Source: a virus
Strand: one strand, 5' to 3'
DNA: 29,591 bases
Virus record (IMG/VR): IMGVR_UViG_3300037587_000240
Location: 1-29,591 of that record
Made by a program: the position numbers and the translations under genes. Under the pieces are notes generated by a model, which made no database searches, was not told the DNA's origin, and saw only the letters and a program-made list of their open reading frames with translations. Positions 4,873 to 10,608 of the stretch are shown in pieces; position 1 is the stretch's first letter, and each line of letters opens with the position of its first letter.

Positions 4873-5325
4873 ATGAGTAAATTAACAGCCGACCAAGAGG
4901 CGTTATTCAATGCAATAACGTCCGGCCTAAGAAAAGAAGTCGCAACCCAGTACATTAAGAACGGTTACGAAAACGGAAAGCAAGCGTATCTCACGGCGTG
5001 TAAGCGCCTCAAGAGAAAGCCATCTAAAAACCCCGAGACTTCTTCCAGTGAAATCCTAAGTTACCCTAATGTTATAGCTTTTATAGAGTCAACACAGATA
5101 GAAGCCGCCCGAGAAGCCCAGATAACGGCCGATTGGGTGTTAAAAGGAATCAAAGAGCTAACTGATGCACTCGTTAAAAGTGATGACCCTAAAGCTGCTT
5201 ACAAGGGCTATGAGCTAGGCGGTAAATATTTAACTTTATTCTCTGATAAGATTGACCATACTTCTAGCGATGGTTCAATGACCCCTCCTACATTTAACTT
5301 TATCCCTGTTGGTCACGATGACTAG
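4873..5325 (+). CDS. terS: terminase small subunit
   Basis: A 150-residue protein, near the size of P22 gp3 (162). It would recognise viral DNA and bring it to the packaging motor. The first half is helical and reads as a terminase-2-type helix-turn-helix (EVATQYIKNG, NGKQAYLTACKR, YPNVIAFIES); the second half (ITADWVLKGIKELTDAL) is an oligomerisation helix. It overlaps the large terminase by 8 bases, the usual arrangement. The start has an AGGAATGA ribosome binding site. The sequence match is to general family features rather than a strict motif, but the position makes the call firm. Confidence 0.85.
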   Translation: MSKLTADQEALFNAITSGLRKEVATQYIKNGYENGKQAYLTACKRLKRKPSKNPETSSSEILSYPNVIAFIESTQIEAAREAQITADWVLKGIKELTDALVKSDDPKAAYKGYELGGKYLTLFSDKIDHTSSDGSMTPPTFNFIPVGHDD

Positions 5326-6826
5326 TATCGATATTAAATACGTTAAAAACCTTCACCCTATATTTACCAAGCGAAAAAGAATAAAAATAATAGTTGGTGG
5401 TCGAGGATCAACAAAGTCAACGGGCGTTGCCGATCTTATATCTGCAAAGCTTACTAATGGTGAGTTGTGGTGTTGTGCCAGGGAGAACCAGAACTCGATT
5501 GAAGAATCTGTGCATCGCACGATACTTGATGAGATAAGCCGGTTAGGTATGGGTGGCTTTGAAGACACCAAGACTTCAATCAATCATACAAGCGGTGGGC
5601 GTACCTTTTACCGTGGCTTGGCAAGGAATATCACATCACTTAAATCAACCTTATCCGGTGTAGATGGTTTATGGATTGAAGAGGGTGAGGATATATCGGC
5701 TAACACCTTGCGAGTGCTAACCGCTTCAGTTCGATTGAACGCCAAAGATTCAGCAAGGTTAATATCTGGTGAAGACGTCAAGATGCCTGAAATAATTATC
5801 ACCATGAATAGGGGCGCAAGGACGGGAGCCGTTGCTCAAAAATGGTTACTAAGGGCAGAAAAGGAGCTATCACGCTGCGGTTACTATGAAGACGACACCG
5901 TTATGATTGTCCAAATGAATTATACAGATATGCCTAAGTCATGGTTTGAGGCTTCAGGGCTGGAGCAGGAACGCTTGGATGATGTTAAGTATTTATCTCA
6001 AGCAGCTTATGATCATAAATGGCTAGGGGATTATATGGATGAAGTTAAAAACTCTATTATTAAACCAGAGTGGTTTGATGCTGCCGTAGATGCTCACAAG
6101 ATAGAAAGGCTCAAAGAAACATTTAAACCGCTTGGCGCTAAGATTGCAGCGCATGACCCTAGTGACTCAGGCTATGATTCCAAAGGTTTTGCTATTCGTC
6201 ACGGCTCAGTGATATTGACTGTTGATGAAAAGCTAGACGGTGAGATTGATGACGGCTGTGATTGGGCGACTGACTTGGCCAAAGAATGGGGTGCTGATTG
6301 GTTTGTTTGGGATGGTGACGGAATGGGTACAGGCTTAAAGCGGCAGGTATCAACCTCACTAGACGGAACGCGAACGCAATACTTTATGTTTAAAGGTTCA
6401 CTGTCTGGCAAGGGACAAGACAACGCTGATAAAACATATCAAGCACAGTACGGCTCACGTAAATCTAACCCTAAGACATATGCTGAAACATTCAGGAATA
6501 ACCGCGCTCAATATTACATAGCACTAGCTGACAGGTTTTATAGTACCTATAAGTGTGTCGTTAAAGGTGAGTATATAGCACCAGAGGAAATGATAAGCCT
6601 AGACAGTGAGGGAATTAAGAATCTCGAAATGCTTAGGTCTGAATGTTGTCGCATACCAAGAGTTGAGAACGGCAACGGGTTAGAGCAGATTATGAACAAG
6701 AAGGAAATGAAGGCGAATGATATTGATTCGCCTAACATGGCTGATTCTTTAATGATGACTCTATTTGTGCCACCAATAAAGAAGAAGCGTAAACCATTAA
6801 ACTATGGCAAGTCTAGCGTGGTTTAA
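5318..6826 (+). CDS. terL: terminase large subunit (DNA-packaging ATPase/nuclease)
   Basis: A 502-residue packaging motor, very close to P22 gp2 in length (499). The ATPase domain has Walker A GGRGSTKST at residues 27-35 and Walker B GLWIEEGE at about 117-124 with the catalytic Glu. The RNase H-like nuclease domain has AAHDPSD (Asp280), WDGDGMG (Asp332/Asp334) and a final acidic site in SPNMADSL (Asp about 476). I chose the ATG at 5318, which overlaps the small subunit by 8 bases; a TTG at 5309 is an alternative. Order and type suggest headful packaging as in P22. Its stop is immediately followed, with no gap, by the end of a leftward gene. Confidence 0.97.
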   Translation: MTSIDIKYVKNLHPIFTKRKRIKIIVGGRGSTKSTGVADLISAKLTNGELWCCARENQNSIEESVHRTILDEISRLGMGGFEDTKTSINHTSGGRTFYRGLARNITSLKSTLSGVDGLWIEEGEDISANTLRVLTASVRLNAKDSARLISGEDVKMPEIIITMNRGARTGAVAQKWLLRAEKELSRCGYYEDDTVMIVQMNYTDMPKSWFEASGLEQERLDDVKYLSQAAYDHKWLGDYMDEVKNSIIKPEWFDAAVDAHKIERLKETFKPLGAKIAAHDPSDSGYDSKGFAIRHGSVILTVDEKLDGEIDDGCDWATDLAKEWGADWFVWDGDGMGTGLKRQVSTSLDGTRTQYFMFKGSLSGKGQDNADKTYQAQYGSRKSNPKTYAETFRNNRAQYYIALADRFYSTYKCVVKGEYIAPEEMISLDSEGIKNLEMLRSECCRIPRVENGNGLEQIMNKKEMKANDIDSPNMADSLMMTLFVPPIKKKRKPLNYGKSSVV

Positions 6827-6985
6827 CTATAAATCCTCGTAAAATCTAATTACCCAAAATGGAAACGTTATAGGTGCAATAAGCAGTGTCTTGATGCAGT
6901 ATTTACCATCTATAACGTCGTACATGTACCACTTAACAGCGAGCAAGAACATTATAAAGTAACTAATCATTATGTATTCAATCAC
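6827..6985 (-). CDS. small membrane protein (52 aa)
   Basis: Read from a GTG behind an AAAAGGG ribosome binding site 7 bases upstream; an ATG at 6970 would give 47 residues. The protein is strongly hydrophobic: one segment near the start (YIMISYFIMFLLAVKWY) and a second near the end (LLIAPITFPFWVIRFY) suggest a two-pass membrane protein. It is the last gene of the leftward island, starting 2 bases after the zinc-ribbon gene stop, and its stop codon abuts the terL stop. The function is unknown; small membrane proteins of this sort sometimes serve in exclusion or host takeover, but nothing here shows it. Confidence 0.55.
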   Translation of the reverse strand: MIEYIMISYFIMFLLAVKWYMYDVIDGKYCIKTLLIAPITFPFWVIRFYEDL

Positions 6986-6987
6986 AA

Positions 6988-7170
6988 TCAAACCCTTTTC
7001 TTTTTAAATGAAGCATTGCCGCCGGTAGTGTTGCCAAGCATCTTAGGTGCGGATAGCACGCGCTTAGAGTTACCGCCACATTTGCATTTAATACTAGTCA
7101 CGTTGCTATCAATTAGCCTATCAAACACGATGCCAGATTCTTGACACTTAAAGTTTTTAAATACCCTCAT
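6988..7170 (-). CDS. FmdB-like zinc-ribbon protein with a degenerate first knuckle
   Basis: A 60-residue protein matching the FmdB-type small zinc ribbon: N-terminal FKNFKCQESGIVFD, then IKCKCGGNSKRVLSAPK. The family pattern is CxxCG...FE...CPxCG...RxxSAP. Here the first knuckle keeps only Cys9 (the second Cys position is Ser12) and the second has Cys29 and Cys31. The RVLSAP segment is typical of the family. The C-terminus is Gly/Asn-rich and ends in KKKRV. Such proteins are often encoded near phage terminase or portal genes, but usually on the same strand. The role is unknown; nucleic-acid or protein binding is plausible. It begins 5 bases after the preceding leftward gene. Confidence 0.75.
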   Translation of the reverse strand: MRVFKNFKCQESGIVFDRLIDSNVTSIKCKCGGNSKRVLSAPKMLGNTTGGNASFKKKRV

Positions 7171-7175
7171 TTAAT

Positions 7176-7343
7176 CTACCCCTTGCGGCTAACCGCTCTC
7201 CGTATATTGTTAATCTTTTCGTAAAGCTGCCCTCTTGTTAGTGTTGAGAACTCTTTTAATAATCGGTCGATCTTTCGCTTTATGAAGCTAGCCTCTGCTT
7301 TTGATAGTGGCTCACCCTTGTTAATCATGCCTTTGCTTTTCAT
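7176..7343 (-). CDS. small basic helical protein (55 aa)
   Basis: Starts MKSKGMINKGEPLSKAEASF and ends RRAVSRKG. The gene overlaps the stop of the upstream gene by an ATGA and is followed after 5 bases by the zinc-ribbon gene. The protein is rich in Lys/Arg, with two amphipathic helices (EASFIKRKIDRLLKEF and TRGQLYEKINNIRRAV), suggesting a small nucleic-acid-binding or adaptor helical hairpin. I do not recognise the family. Coding is supported by the exact stop/start coupling on both sides. Confidence 0.7.
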   Translation of the reverse strand: MKSKGMINKGEPLSKAEASFIKRKIDRLLKEFSTLTRGQLYEKINNIRRAVSRKG

Positions 7344-7501
7344 AACCTACCCTCTAAACCTTTGCACATACACTCCAATTGATTAGCCATCTTGTCGCTG
7401 TTACATCTAGCGTTATAGGTGGCGTATCTAATGCCCCAGTATTCGCAAGCTTCCAATACTGCCCAACCTTTGTTGTGAATTATTAGTGTGAATTTATTCA
7501 T
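7340..7501 (-). CDS. small Cys-containing protein (53 aa)
   Basis: The product begins MNKFTLIIHNKGWAVLEACE and continues with YWGIRYATYNARC and MANQLECMCKGLEGRL. It has four cysteines (two as CMC near the end region) and a beta-alpha-alpha pattern. It is coupled by ATGA overlaps to the genes on both sides. I know the look of such short phage proteins but not a named family or function. The ordered overlaps make it very likely to be translated. Confidence 0.72.
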   Translation of the reverse strand: MNKFTLIIHNKGWAVLEACEYWGIRYATYNARCNSDKMANQLECMCKGLEGRL

Positions 7502-7689
7502 CGTTCGATCTCCGTAAAAACCTTAACCTTCTTTTTAGTTACCTTGTAATCAACTACCTGTGTAGATGTGAACATGGCGTCCGCCTCTGGCCTTCCCATA
7601 TCCTTCATAACAAAGCTTTTAGTAACCTCTTTAACATCAAACCCTTGCGCTTCGATATAAGCCCTTAGTAGTTTCTCTGTGTTATTCAT
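7498..7689 (-). CDS. small hypothetical protein (63 aa)
   Basis: Unrecognised 63-residue protein. The N-terminal half (TEKLLRAYIEAQGFDVKEV) is an alpha-beta unit; the C-terminal half (VVDYKVTKKKVKVFTEIER) is Lys-rich and strand-like. No membrane segment is visible. It overlaps both neighbours through ATGA junctions, so it belongs to the leftward island operon. Confidence 0.75.
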   Translation of the reverse strand: MNNTEKLLRAYIEAQGFDVKEVTKSFVMKDMGRPEADAMFTSTQVVDYKVTKKKVKVFTEIER

Positions 7690-8021
7690 TTGATTTCTCC
7701 ATTGTTAAACATGACGACGATCTTGTTTGCTTGCTCGTTAACTAGCCGATAAAAGAATGATTTACGGTTTCTTATATCGACACCCTTTGATATATCGCTT
7801 TTAGCGGCGGCAAGTAGCGTATCTTCAAGTAGCTCAAGTATCGCCTCATCATCGTCAAGCAGCGCCTTAGTAACTTTGTATTTAAAGCTATCGCCTTCTA
7901 GCCGTTTAACATCGTCTTTTAATTTGCCGTTAATAAAGATGTAATCATCGATCGATTTATTGGCTATTTCTAGCTCGCCTTTTAATCTTGTTATATCCAG
8001 CTTTAGCTTAGAGTTAAACAC
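7686..8021 (-). CDS. coiled-coil protein, unknown function (111 aa)
   Basis: The start is GTG, with a strong GGAGG ribosome binding site 5 bases upstream and the upstream stop directly adjacent. Residues about 5-45 (LKLDITRLKGELEIANKSID and onward) form a heptad-like coiled coil. The rest is helical, with an acidic patch (LLDDDEAILELLEDTLL) and a basic patch (RNRKSFFYRLVNEQ). It is the largest gene of the island. It could be an oligomeric DNA- or protein-binding factor, but no family is recognised. Confidence 0.75.
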   Translation of the reverse strand: MFNSKLKLDITRLKGELEIANKSIDDYIFINGKLKDDVKRLEGDSFKYKVTKALLDDDEAILELLEDTLLAAAKSDISKGVDIRNRKSFFYRLVNEQANKIVVMFNNGEIK

Positions 8022-8138
8022 TTAAACCTCCTCGTAAATATCAACATCAATACAGAATGCTAATGCTATTTTATTTATAGCCTCGATTGCTTCTTGCTCG
8101 CTTGTTAGTTGCTCGATTATCATATCTGCTTTATTCAT
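8022..8138 (-). CDS. very small acidic protein (38 aa)
   Basis: Starts MNKADMIIEQLTSEQEAIEA and ends FCIDVDIYEEV. It is an acidic helical peptide. An AGAGG ribosome binding site lies 6 bases upstream, and its stop codon abuts the GTG of the next gene, with the next ribosome binding site embedded in its last codons. This coupling is the main evidence that it is translated. The function is unknown. Confidence 0.62.
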   Translation of the reverse strand: MNKADMIIEQLTSEQEAIEAINKIALAFCIDVDIYEEV

Positions 8139-8157
8139 GTAAACCTCTTTATATTAT

Positions 8158-8322
8158 TTAACCATTTAGTTGCTTGTCGATACAGTTGAGCGATTCAACT
8201 ATAAAATCAGCGCACGACTCTTGATCACATTCAGCCATAATTGATTGAGGTAATTCATTATCTATAACGGAAAAAAATGAATGGCCAATATCGTCAACCG
8301 TGTACTTATATTCATATCTCAT
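8158..8322 (-). CDS. small acidic hypothetical protein (54 aa)
   Basis: Starts MRYEYKYTVDDIGHSF and ends LNCIDKQLNG. It has three cysteines and reads as a short beta strand pair followed by a helix (CADFIVESLNCIDKQL). Its start overlaps the upstream stop by an ATGA, and an AGAGG site lies 7 bases upstream inside the previous gene. No family is recognised. It belongs to the island operon. Confidence 0.68.
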   Translation of the reverse strand: MRYEYKYTVDDIGHSFFSVIDNELPQSIMAECDQESCADFIVESLNCIDKQLNG

Positions 8323-8402
8323 AAACAAACCTCTACTACCATTAACGCTATTAAAATAAATGTAAGCGCACCAAGATAATGCACCCTGTTAAATTCCTTC
8401 AT
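8319..8402 (-). CDS. single-pass membrane micropeptide (27 aa)
   Basis: Starts MKEFNRVHYLGALTFILIAL and ends VVEVCL. It is a charged amino end followed by one hydrophobic helix long enough to span a membrane. A TAAGGGTG sequence upstream can act as a ribosome binding site, and the stop overlaps the next start as ATGA. It is the first gene after the proposed leftward promoter at 8476-8504. It could be a genuine membrane micropeptide or merely a leader that couples translation of the next gene. Confidence 0.5.
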   Translation of the reverse strand: MKEFNRVHYLGALTFILIALMVVEVCL

Positions 8403-8448
8403 CTTCACCCTTAGTATTGTTGTATTTTATACGGGTAAACCGCATTGA

Positions 8449-8467
8449 GTAGCGCGTTTAACGCTAC
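8449..8467 (-). promoter_or_regulatory. leader hairpin / possible operator
   Basis: GTAGCG (8449-8454) and CGCTAC (8462-8467) form a 6-base dyad around CGTTTAA. For the proposed leftward promoter, whose start would be near 8469, this would be the very 5' end of the transcript, where a hairpin could stabilise the mRNA; as DNA it could be an operator. Confidence 0.35.
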
Positions 8468-8468
8468 G

Positions 8469-8497
8469 TGTTAAGACTATAACAAGTAGGCTATAAT
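8469..8497 (+). promoter_or_regulatory. rightward promoter of the portal/head genes
   Basis: A perfect TATAAT sits at 8492-8497 on the plus strand, about 42 bases before the portal ATG. The upstream element is weak (TGTTAA at 8469-8474 with a 17-base spacer). A dyad TGTTA...TAACA (8469-8484) covers this weak -35 and the -10 of the opposed leftward promoter, so a regulator bound there could choose between the two directions. Confidence 0.45.
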
Positions 8498-8504
8498 AAA
8501 TCAA
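8476..8504 (-). promoter_or_regulatory. leftward promoter of the small-gene island
   Basis: On the minus strand, TTGATT (8499-8504) is followed after exactly 17 bases by TATAGT (8476-8481), a good -35/-10 pair (4 of 6 and 5 of 6 to consensus). It lies about 75 bases upstream of the first island gene. Its spacer contains the -10 of an opposed rightward promoter. Confidence 0.5.
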
Positions 8505-8538
8505 ACAGCAATCACCCCTAATACTTGAGTATTTATCA

Positions 8539-10608
8539 ATGCCAAAGATGACCGATCCCCAATTAGTGGCCCTACTTTCACAAGCCAAAGAACAAGCCGC
8601 GATATATAACGGTGAGTTCATGGAGGAAAACACTAAGTATTTATCAGCTTATCTAGGTGAAAAGGAAGGTGAGTTTGCAGGCATAGAAAATCAATCAAGC
8701 GTGGTATCAACTGATATTGCCGATGTAATTGAAGCTGATATGCCATCGTTAATGCGTATCTTTTACGGTTCGGGTGATGTAGTTACATTTCAATCTAATA
8801 CTGAAAACCCTGCTGAAGTTCAAGAGGCAGAAGAGAAAACCAAGTACGTTAATTGGGTGTTAAGAAACCAGCCAGAATCTTTTATGATGTGGCACTCATG
8901 GTTGAAAGATGCCGAGATTCAAAAGAATGGCGTAGTTAAATACTTTGTTGATGAACAAAAGGAAGTTGACGAAGTAAGATTTACAGGCGTTGACTTTGAT
9001 GAGTTAAGTACCATTGTTGAAAGTTTGAATGATCCGGCTGTTATCAAGTCAGAAATCACAAGCCAAGAAGAGACTTCCGAAGGTGTTTGGGATTTAACAT
9101 TTAAAGTTACCCGCGAAACTAAAAAGATTTGTGTTCTTAATATACCGCCCGAATCATTCCTTATCTCGCGCAATGCTACAGGCATAGATGATGCTGAATT
9201 GGTCGGTGATAGAGTTAGAAAGACTCGCGGTGAGTTGTTGGCGGAAGGCTTTAAGCGTGATTTGATTGATCAACTATCGACCGTTGATGAAGAAGAAAAC
9301 CGCAACTCAAACATTAAAGCAGTACGCAACCGTGACCAAGGCGGCAATAATCCAGATGGGACAATTAATAATTGGGCCAGTCAATACGTCGAGATAACGG
9401 ACTTGTACGTCAAGATTGACTTTGATGGTGATGGAATTGCAGAGCGTCGACACGTTATGATATCCGGTAATAAGATTCTAATTAACGAATACTTTAACCA
9501 CGTTCCTTACGCTTCATTGTCGGCAATATTAATGCCCCATAAAGCTATTGGTCGTAGTCGTGCTGAAATTACATATCCAACACAGTTACAAAAAACTGCC
9601 TTAGTACGTGGCATGAATGACAATATTTACATGGTTAATAACCCTCGTAATGTTGTTCATCCTGACGTTGATCTTGATGATATGTTGACGGTACGCACGA
9701 ACGGTATTATCCGTATGGATGATGAAACAACCGTACTACCACAACAAGCGGTATTTCCTTTACAAATTCCATATATTGGCGACCGTACATTGCAAGTTAT
9801 ACAATACGTTGACCAAGCAAGAGCGCAAACAACCGGCGCGTTACTACCCAACCAAGGCTTAGACGCTGATAAAATATCAAGCGAAACAGCAACACGCTTC
9901 AATGGTATCAAAGACTCATCAGATGCAAAGATTGAATTAATAGCGCGTAACTATGCCGAAACTGGTGTGCGTAAATTGTATGAGGGTATTGCATGGTTAG
10001 CGTCAAGGTTCCAAGATACGCAAACGGAAATCATGGTATTAGGTAAGCAGTTAACAGTTAACCCTACACAGTGGAAATCTAACCATCACATACAAACCAA
10101 TGTTGGTTTAGGTGCAGGCAATAACGAAAAATCAGTCGAAAGCTTACAAGGGCTGTATCAAATACAATCACTGTTGAAGTCTCAACAATCGCCACTCGTT
10201 GATGATAAAGATATTTATAACACATTAGCCCGTATTACTGACGGCTTAGGATTCCCAAGAACAAACGAATTCTTTAACAACCCAGAAGAACCTGACGAGT
10301 TATTGCGCCATGAAAACGAACAGCTAAACGCTAACGGTTTACAGCAACAGCAAATTATTGAGCAGTTAACTGAACAGATTAGGCAGCTACAAGCATTATC
10401 AGAGGTCGAGTTGATCAAGGCGCAAGCTAAAGGGCAAGCAGACGATAAGAAAGCCGCTCTTGGTGTTGCTCAGCTAAAAGAGAAAGCGCGAGAGTTTAAT
10501 ATTGATGCAACGCAAACAGCCAACAAGCAACAATCAGATGAAGCTTTAAAGATTACTGAAATGGAATTAAACAATAACACTGACTTACCAGGTGGATTAG
10601 ATGCGTAG
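8539..10608 (+). CDS. portal protein, P22 gp1-like
   Basis: A 689-residue portal, near P22 gp1 (725). It would form the twelve-subunit ring at the packaging vertex through which DNA enters and leaves. Recognisable features are the N-terminal clip/wing region with DIADVIEADMPSLMRIF, the stem/crown region with YDPVT-like IDFDGDGIAERRHVMI, GRSRAEITYPTQLQKTALVRG and ARAQTTGALLPNQG, and a Gln-rich coiled tail (residues about 590-650, LQQQQIIEQLTEQIRQLQ) comparable to the helical barrel of long portals. It follows the island on the opposite strand, and the next gene overlaps its end by 8 bases. Confidence 0.93.
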   Translation: MPKMTDPQLVALLSQAKEQAAIYNGEFMEENTKYLSAYLGEKEGEFAGIENQSSVVSTDIADVIEADMPSLMRIFYGSGDVVTFQSNTENPAEVQEAEEKTKYVNWVLRNQPESFMMWHSWLKDAEIQKNGVVKYFVDEQKEVDEVRFTGVDFDELSTIVESLNDPAVIKSEITSQEETSEGVWDLTFKVTRETKKICVLNIPPESFLISRNATGIDDAELVGDRVRKTRGELLAEGFKRDLIDQLSTVDEEENRNSNIKAVRNRDQGGNNPDGTINNWASQYVEITDLYVKIDFDGDGIAERRHVMISGNKILINEYFNHVPYASLSAILMPHKAIGRSRAEITYPTQLQKTALVRGMNDNIYMVNNPRNVVHPDVDLDDMLTVRTNGIIRMDDETTVLPQQAVFPLQIPYIGDRTLQVIQYVDQARAQTTGALLPNQGLDADKISSETATRFNGIKDSSDAKIELIARNYAETGVRKLYEGIAWLASRFQDTQTEIMVLGKQLTVNPTQWKSNHHIQTNVGLGAGNNEKSVESLQGLYQIQSLLKSQQSPLVDDKDIYNTLARITDGLGFPRTNEFFNNPEEPDELLRHENEQLNANGLQQQQIIEQLTEQIRQLQALSEVELIKAQAKGQADDKKAALGVAQLKEKAREFNIDATQTANKQQSDEALKITEMELNNNTDLPGGLDA

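Follow-up and report, generated by a model that had tools for sequence, protein, structure and literature searches.

A leftward island of small genes between terL and portal in a P22/Sf6-like phage and its relatives

Gene content of the terL–portal interval

The stretch of DNA analyzed here (the window) is a 29,591-base IMG/VR record derived from a phage of the P22/Sf6-like type. Its TerL is 37–43% identical to those of Sf6 and relatives, and PHROGs matches identified P22-like coat, head-completion and DNA-ejection proteins. The terL gene (5309–6826) and the portal gene (8539–10608) are separated by an island on the minus strand (6827–8402). P22-like phages were originally said to run straight on from terL to portal, and these genes are indeed adjacent in Sf6, AH02 and Vibrio phage 199E37-1.

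The island consists of nine leftward ORFs of 27 to 111 amino acids, arranged in a chain running from 8402 to 6827, which reproduces the limits and the size range given in the original prediction. Four junctions are ATGA overlaps and the remaining gaps are 0, 2, 5 and 19 nt, with an SD-like purine run 5′ of all nine starts. When one extra weak ORF upstream is counted, the leftward chain occupies 1636 of 1712 nt, compared with 246 ± 95 nt (maximum 704) in 500 dinucleotide shuffles. GC content is 0.376 in the island, 0.427 in terL and 0.407 in portal. The coupling of the ORFs, their SD-like sites and a chain longer than in any of the 500 shuffles bear out the proposal that these genes form an operon, and the leftward nine-gene island is confirmed as real. 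A terminator-like site on the minus strand inside terL (6733–6711) does not exceed what chance alone would give.

Relatives were found in other islands for seven of the nine ORFs, o3 and o9 being orphans. At the terL end, o1 (6827–6985) starts with GTG and encodes a 52-aa membrane-like micropeptide of the MIEYxxISYxxM family with a hydropathy peak of 1.6–1.8. The family was found in eight islands, including that of locus L002, where relatives of o1, o6 and o7 are leftward but lie after the portal gene. At the other end, the first gene of this island, o9 (8319–8402, SD-like AAGGG), encodes a 27-aa one-helix membrane-like micropeptide with a hydropathy peak of 2.39.

The distal o2 (6988–7170) encodes a 60-aa zinc-ribbon-like protein. 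Zn_ribbon_8 matches were obtained for 12 of 17 members of its family (best 5e-4), and the window protein scored 15.8 bits, under the Pfam gathering cut-off of 34.4. The AF2 model is all-beta (pLDDT 68.6). The protein resembles FmdB/Zn_ribbon_8 in size, Cys pattern and predicted beta fold, and one relative, from a phage, bears the annotation 'FmdB-like transcriptional regulator', but it differs in that sub-cut-off score and in the ligands: three Cys are invariant, whereas the fourth zinc ligand is not conserved. The earlier assignment as a zinc ribbon thus needs a qualification, the ribbon being degenerate.

Among the remaining genes, o3 (7176–7343, SD-like GAGGG, ATGA overlap) encodes a 55-aa basic protein, and o5 (7498–7689) a 63-aa protein of the MNNTEKLLRA-IEA-GFD...DYKVTKK family with relatives in about five other islands and in L121–L124. 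The GTG-started o6 (7686–8021) encodes a 111-aa protein whose N-terminal half is coiled-coil-like and for which no relative was found in annotated phages. It is followed upstream by o7 (8022–8138), a 38-aa acidic micropeptide, and o8 (8158–8322), a 54-aa Cys-containing protein with a single, weak relative in L049. In L002, o6 and o7 are again adjacent and are 72% and 79% identical to the window copies, with a strong synonymous excess (pN 0.19 against pS 0.73 for o6; 0.15 against 0.68 for o7). The excess is weaker in the o2 and o4 families, where synonymous sites are often saturated (median dN/dS 0.32 for o2; 0.52 for o4). Conservation of frames among homologues had been set beforehand as a test, and frames are kept in o6, o7 and the o2 and o4 families.

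Recurrence of the island in related phages

The clade was defined as 33 distinct loci, window included, with portals at least 58% identical. A leftward island with genes of the o2 or o4 family is present in all 33, in a terL–portal gap of 237–2632 bp; in the outgroups L093–L095 (portal 40–45% identical) the gap is 2–73 bp and empty. The most conserved island gene is o2, found in 32 of the 33 and mostly at the terL end. The signature gene o4 (about 53 aa) is present in 23, usually in the promoter-proximal position about 100–145 nt from the portal start. A Colwellia MAG is the source of one relative, a hint as to the host group. L077 has its o4 gene beyond portal and, apart from it, an island with o2 only in the portal–terL gap; in L122 two o4 genes lying close together belong to different types.

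Beyond this scaffold the content is mosaic. The genes of all islands taken together form 56 families, of which 41 are singletons, and 82 of 94 junctions are overlaps or gaps of at most 20 nt. A membrane-like segment is present in 21 of 82 cargo proteins. Most cargo has no database match: searches of PADLOC, PHROGs, Pfam and NCBIfam gave no convincing defence or anti-defence family except HNH endonucleases (HNH_3, directly after o4 in L007 and L051), and no Acr homologue, these collections omitting some Acr families. Island proteins taken singly had only weak matches in Pfam and PHROGs. Island DNA searched in annotated phages, Rfam and tRNA scans gave no match, and profiles of o2 and o4 searched against PDB sequences gave nothing usable.

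Islands of this kind occur next to two distinct types of terL. L003 and L007 differ in the terL type ahead of their otherwise similar portal genes, which indicates exchange of terL among clade members. Together with the mosaic cargo and the occurrence of the same families in other slots and phages, the two terL types support the original view of a horizontally exchanged cassette. Conservation of the island as a hot spot, with o2 and o4 as its recurring scaffold, goes beyond what had been predicted from the window.

The surroundings of o4 were compared in 53 unique loci, many of them found via portal or island relatives, so that the sample is not random. Among the 50 uncultivated loci, large neighbours are antiparallel to o4 on both sides in 31 and on the only visible side in 17; a same-strand large neighbour was seen in two. 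Besides the terL/portal slot, islands antiparallel to head genes lie between portal and scaffold (L158) and between MuF and scaffold (L137). In cultured Vibrio phages o4 relatives belong to accessory clusters, with a Lar restriction-alleviation gene, DNA methylases, NinX or a weakly DndB-like gene nearby. One of these relatives is antiparallel within the head block; others often share the strand of their neighbours, and the antiparallel rule is therefore not universal. In Vibrio phage 1.131.O (L117, 3699–4671) the head block contains an o4 relative and a weakly DndB-like gene of 269 aa, both in antiparallel orientation, and in phage 1.168.O (L116) a similar pair occupies another region, before an antirepressor gene.

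The divergent region and o4

The o4 gene of the window (7340–7501) encodes a 53-aa protein predicted to be a Cro/C1-like HTH regulator. Its AF2 model has four helices and no beta strand (pLDDT 86.5), and Foldseek matches were mostly to Cro/C1-type HTH proteins including Aca1, all weak, with every E-value above 0.001 in both libraries. In this island extra genes have displaced o4 from the promoter end (it is fifth in the chain, plus one more gene).

Between o9 and portal lies a divergent, putatively regulatory region (8403–8538). It contains the conserved promoter-like element TATAATAAATCAAAC (8492–8506, plus strand) upstream of portal, and nearly all loci have a TATAATAagTAAAAC-type element before portal. 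The 8492 site has the best matrix score of the window (18.0), having itself been used in building the matrix. A second copy at 2465, before an ORF at 2498, is independent of the matrix and scored 13.9. Both consist of TATAAT followed by a AAGTAAAAC-like sequence, and no consensus −35 was seen for either the leftward or the portal promoter. The element could be a late promoter that is specific to the phage or depends on an activator, and the portal gene probably has its own promoter. As portal is preceded by such an element, the island need not interrupt one single late operon. L016 likewise has two copies (5968 and 3306).

When the 70 nt preceding the promoter-like element of portal were compared by o4 type, identity was 0.61 within the same type and 0.28 between types. 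Portal identity did not differ (0.71 for the same o4 type, 0.72 for different types). The partial Mantel correlation of o4 type with intergenic DNA, given portal, was 0.70 (0 of 2000 permutations), compared with 0.06 for o2; there is no co-segregation with o2 or portal. In six loci where o4 has moved from first position, the type-1 region is mostly retained, although not clearly in L085. This co-segregation fits a regulator–operator pair. Physical linkage could produce the same pattern, since o4 usually adjoins the region and insertion of cargo leaves that link unbroken. A 6-bp inverted repeat, GTAGCG-7-CGCTAC, is present at 8449–8467; across the intergenic regions of the loci palindromes showed no enrichment overall (mean z 0.38), with individual repeats only. 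The predicted fold and the co-segregation with promoter DNA support, for o4, the earlier suggestion of a regulatory function, and o4 is likely to be an autoregulator of the island operon.

Interpretation and comparison with known systems

The observed gene chain, its conservation, the hot-spot position, the mosaic cargo and the co-segregation of o4 type with promoter DNA can be explained, with moderate confidence, by a self-regulated accessory (moron-type) operon that carries probably host-directed cargo in a conserved slot of the head block. For such an operon we infer the HTH function of o4, the direction and timing of regulation and the function of the cargo as follows. Leftward transcription of the island would start at a promoter of its own within the divergent region beside portal. 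Binding of o4 to this region would repress or tune the island promoter, and might also influence the nearby portal/head promoter. The remaining tiny genes would be exchangeable cargo, most likely counter-defence, membrane or host-takeover factors, and the island would recombine together with its promoter region. The early action, host takeover or exclusion proposed originally is plausible for the island.

Since about 100–135 bp hold both the promoter-like element of portal and the o4-linked DNA, and islands in other phages are placed directly upstream of scaffold/MCP, again beside a promoter-like −10, the island could instead be a divergent early/late switch. Early o4 would then repress the portal/head promoter and delay the head genes as a Cro/Ner-like gate, the cargo being secondary. 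We consider this unlikely: o4 is absent from 10 of 33 clade members, some of which have o2 only, which argues that it is not needed for head expression, and the outgroups do without it. A strict anti-CRISPR or anti-defence operon, in which o4 would be a novel Aca-type repressor, is a special case of the accessory operon, so that confidence in the two overlaps; it is possible, if doubtful. The island anatomy resembles that of acr-aca operons (PMC9410906, PMC4378225), the weak fold matches of o4 include Aca1, and Lar and methylase genes neighbour its relatives. However, the cargo matches no Acr or defence family in PADLOC, PHROGs, Pfam or NCBIfam, and acr genes typically precede aca, whereas o4 is usually promoter-proximal.

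A selfish, homing-type insertion hot spot that HNH endonucleases spread and in which the small genes are passengers would account for the HNH_3 genes directly after o4, but these occur in only two of 33 islands, and o2 and o4 are kept in most islands under purifying selection; we regard it as very improbable. That the ORFs are spurious antisense frames, as the orphans o3 and o9 might suggest, has next to no likelihood given the shuffle test, the conserved and selected frames and the SD-like sites. On the same evidence this reading was rejected for o1, o2 and o4–o7.

The accessory operon preferred here is of a known kind, in an apparently undescribed variant; in the part of the literature covered by our search no such island was described. 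The swappable cluster of tiny genes in these marine phages is probably a kit against the host or its defences, which a phage could exchange without disturbing its structural genes. The position of the island and an adjacent o4 offer a way to dozens of unannotated small, probably host-directed phage proteins, much as Aca genes have served to locate anti-CRISPRs. The island is also a testable case of an antiparallel operon coexisting with a late gene block. It would be a speculative step, and one we hold to be rather improbable, to propose that mobile HTH-led antiparallel islands form a widespread, hitherto undescribed class in marine phage head clusters and that one regulator controls both island and head promoter. 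If true, a single small regulator would link the time at which capsids are made with a host-directed operon.

The nearest precedents are P22 immI (PMC8022706) and the acr-aca operons (PMC9410906, PMC4378225); membership in either is not established. P22 immI (mnt-arc-ant, with sieA) lies between genes 16 and 9, whereas the island lies among packaging and head genes, and no antirepressor (ant-like) match was found in it with Pfam or PHROGs. Arc and Mnt are ribbon-helix-helix proteins, whereas o4 is predicted to be all-helical. The acr-aca operons and region RGP G of Mu-like Pseudomonas phages unite very small accessory genes and an HTH autoregulator in a plastic part of the genome (PMC4378225, PMC9410906), and the island likewise joins tiny accessory genes to a predicted HTH autoregulator in a plastic region. 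In acr-aca operons, acr genes typically come first and aca follows; the island differs in its usually first regulator, in its orientation antiparallel to head genes and in having no Acr homologue among the matches found. Like a moron, it is a putative extra transcription unit of lower GC (0.376 against 0.41–0.43) inserted between genes that are adjacent in the P22-like comparators and the outgroups. It differs from a moron in being multi-gene, with a recurring o2 and o4 scaffold and a slot that recurs across the clade.
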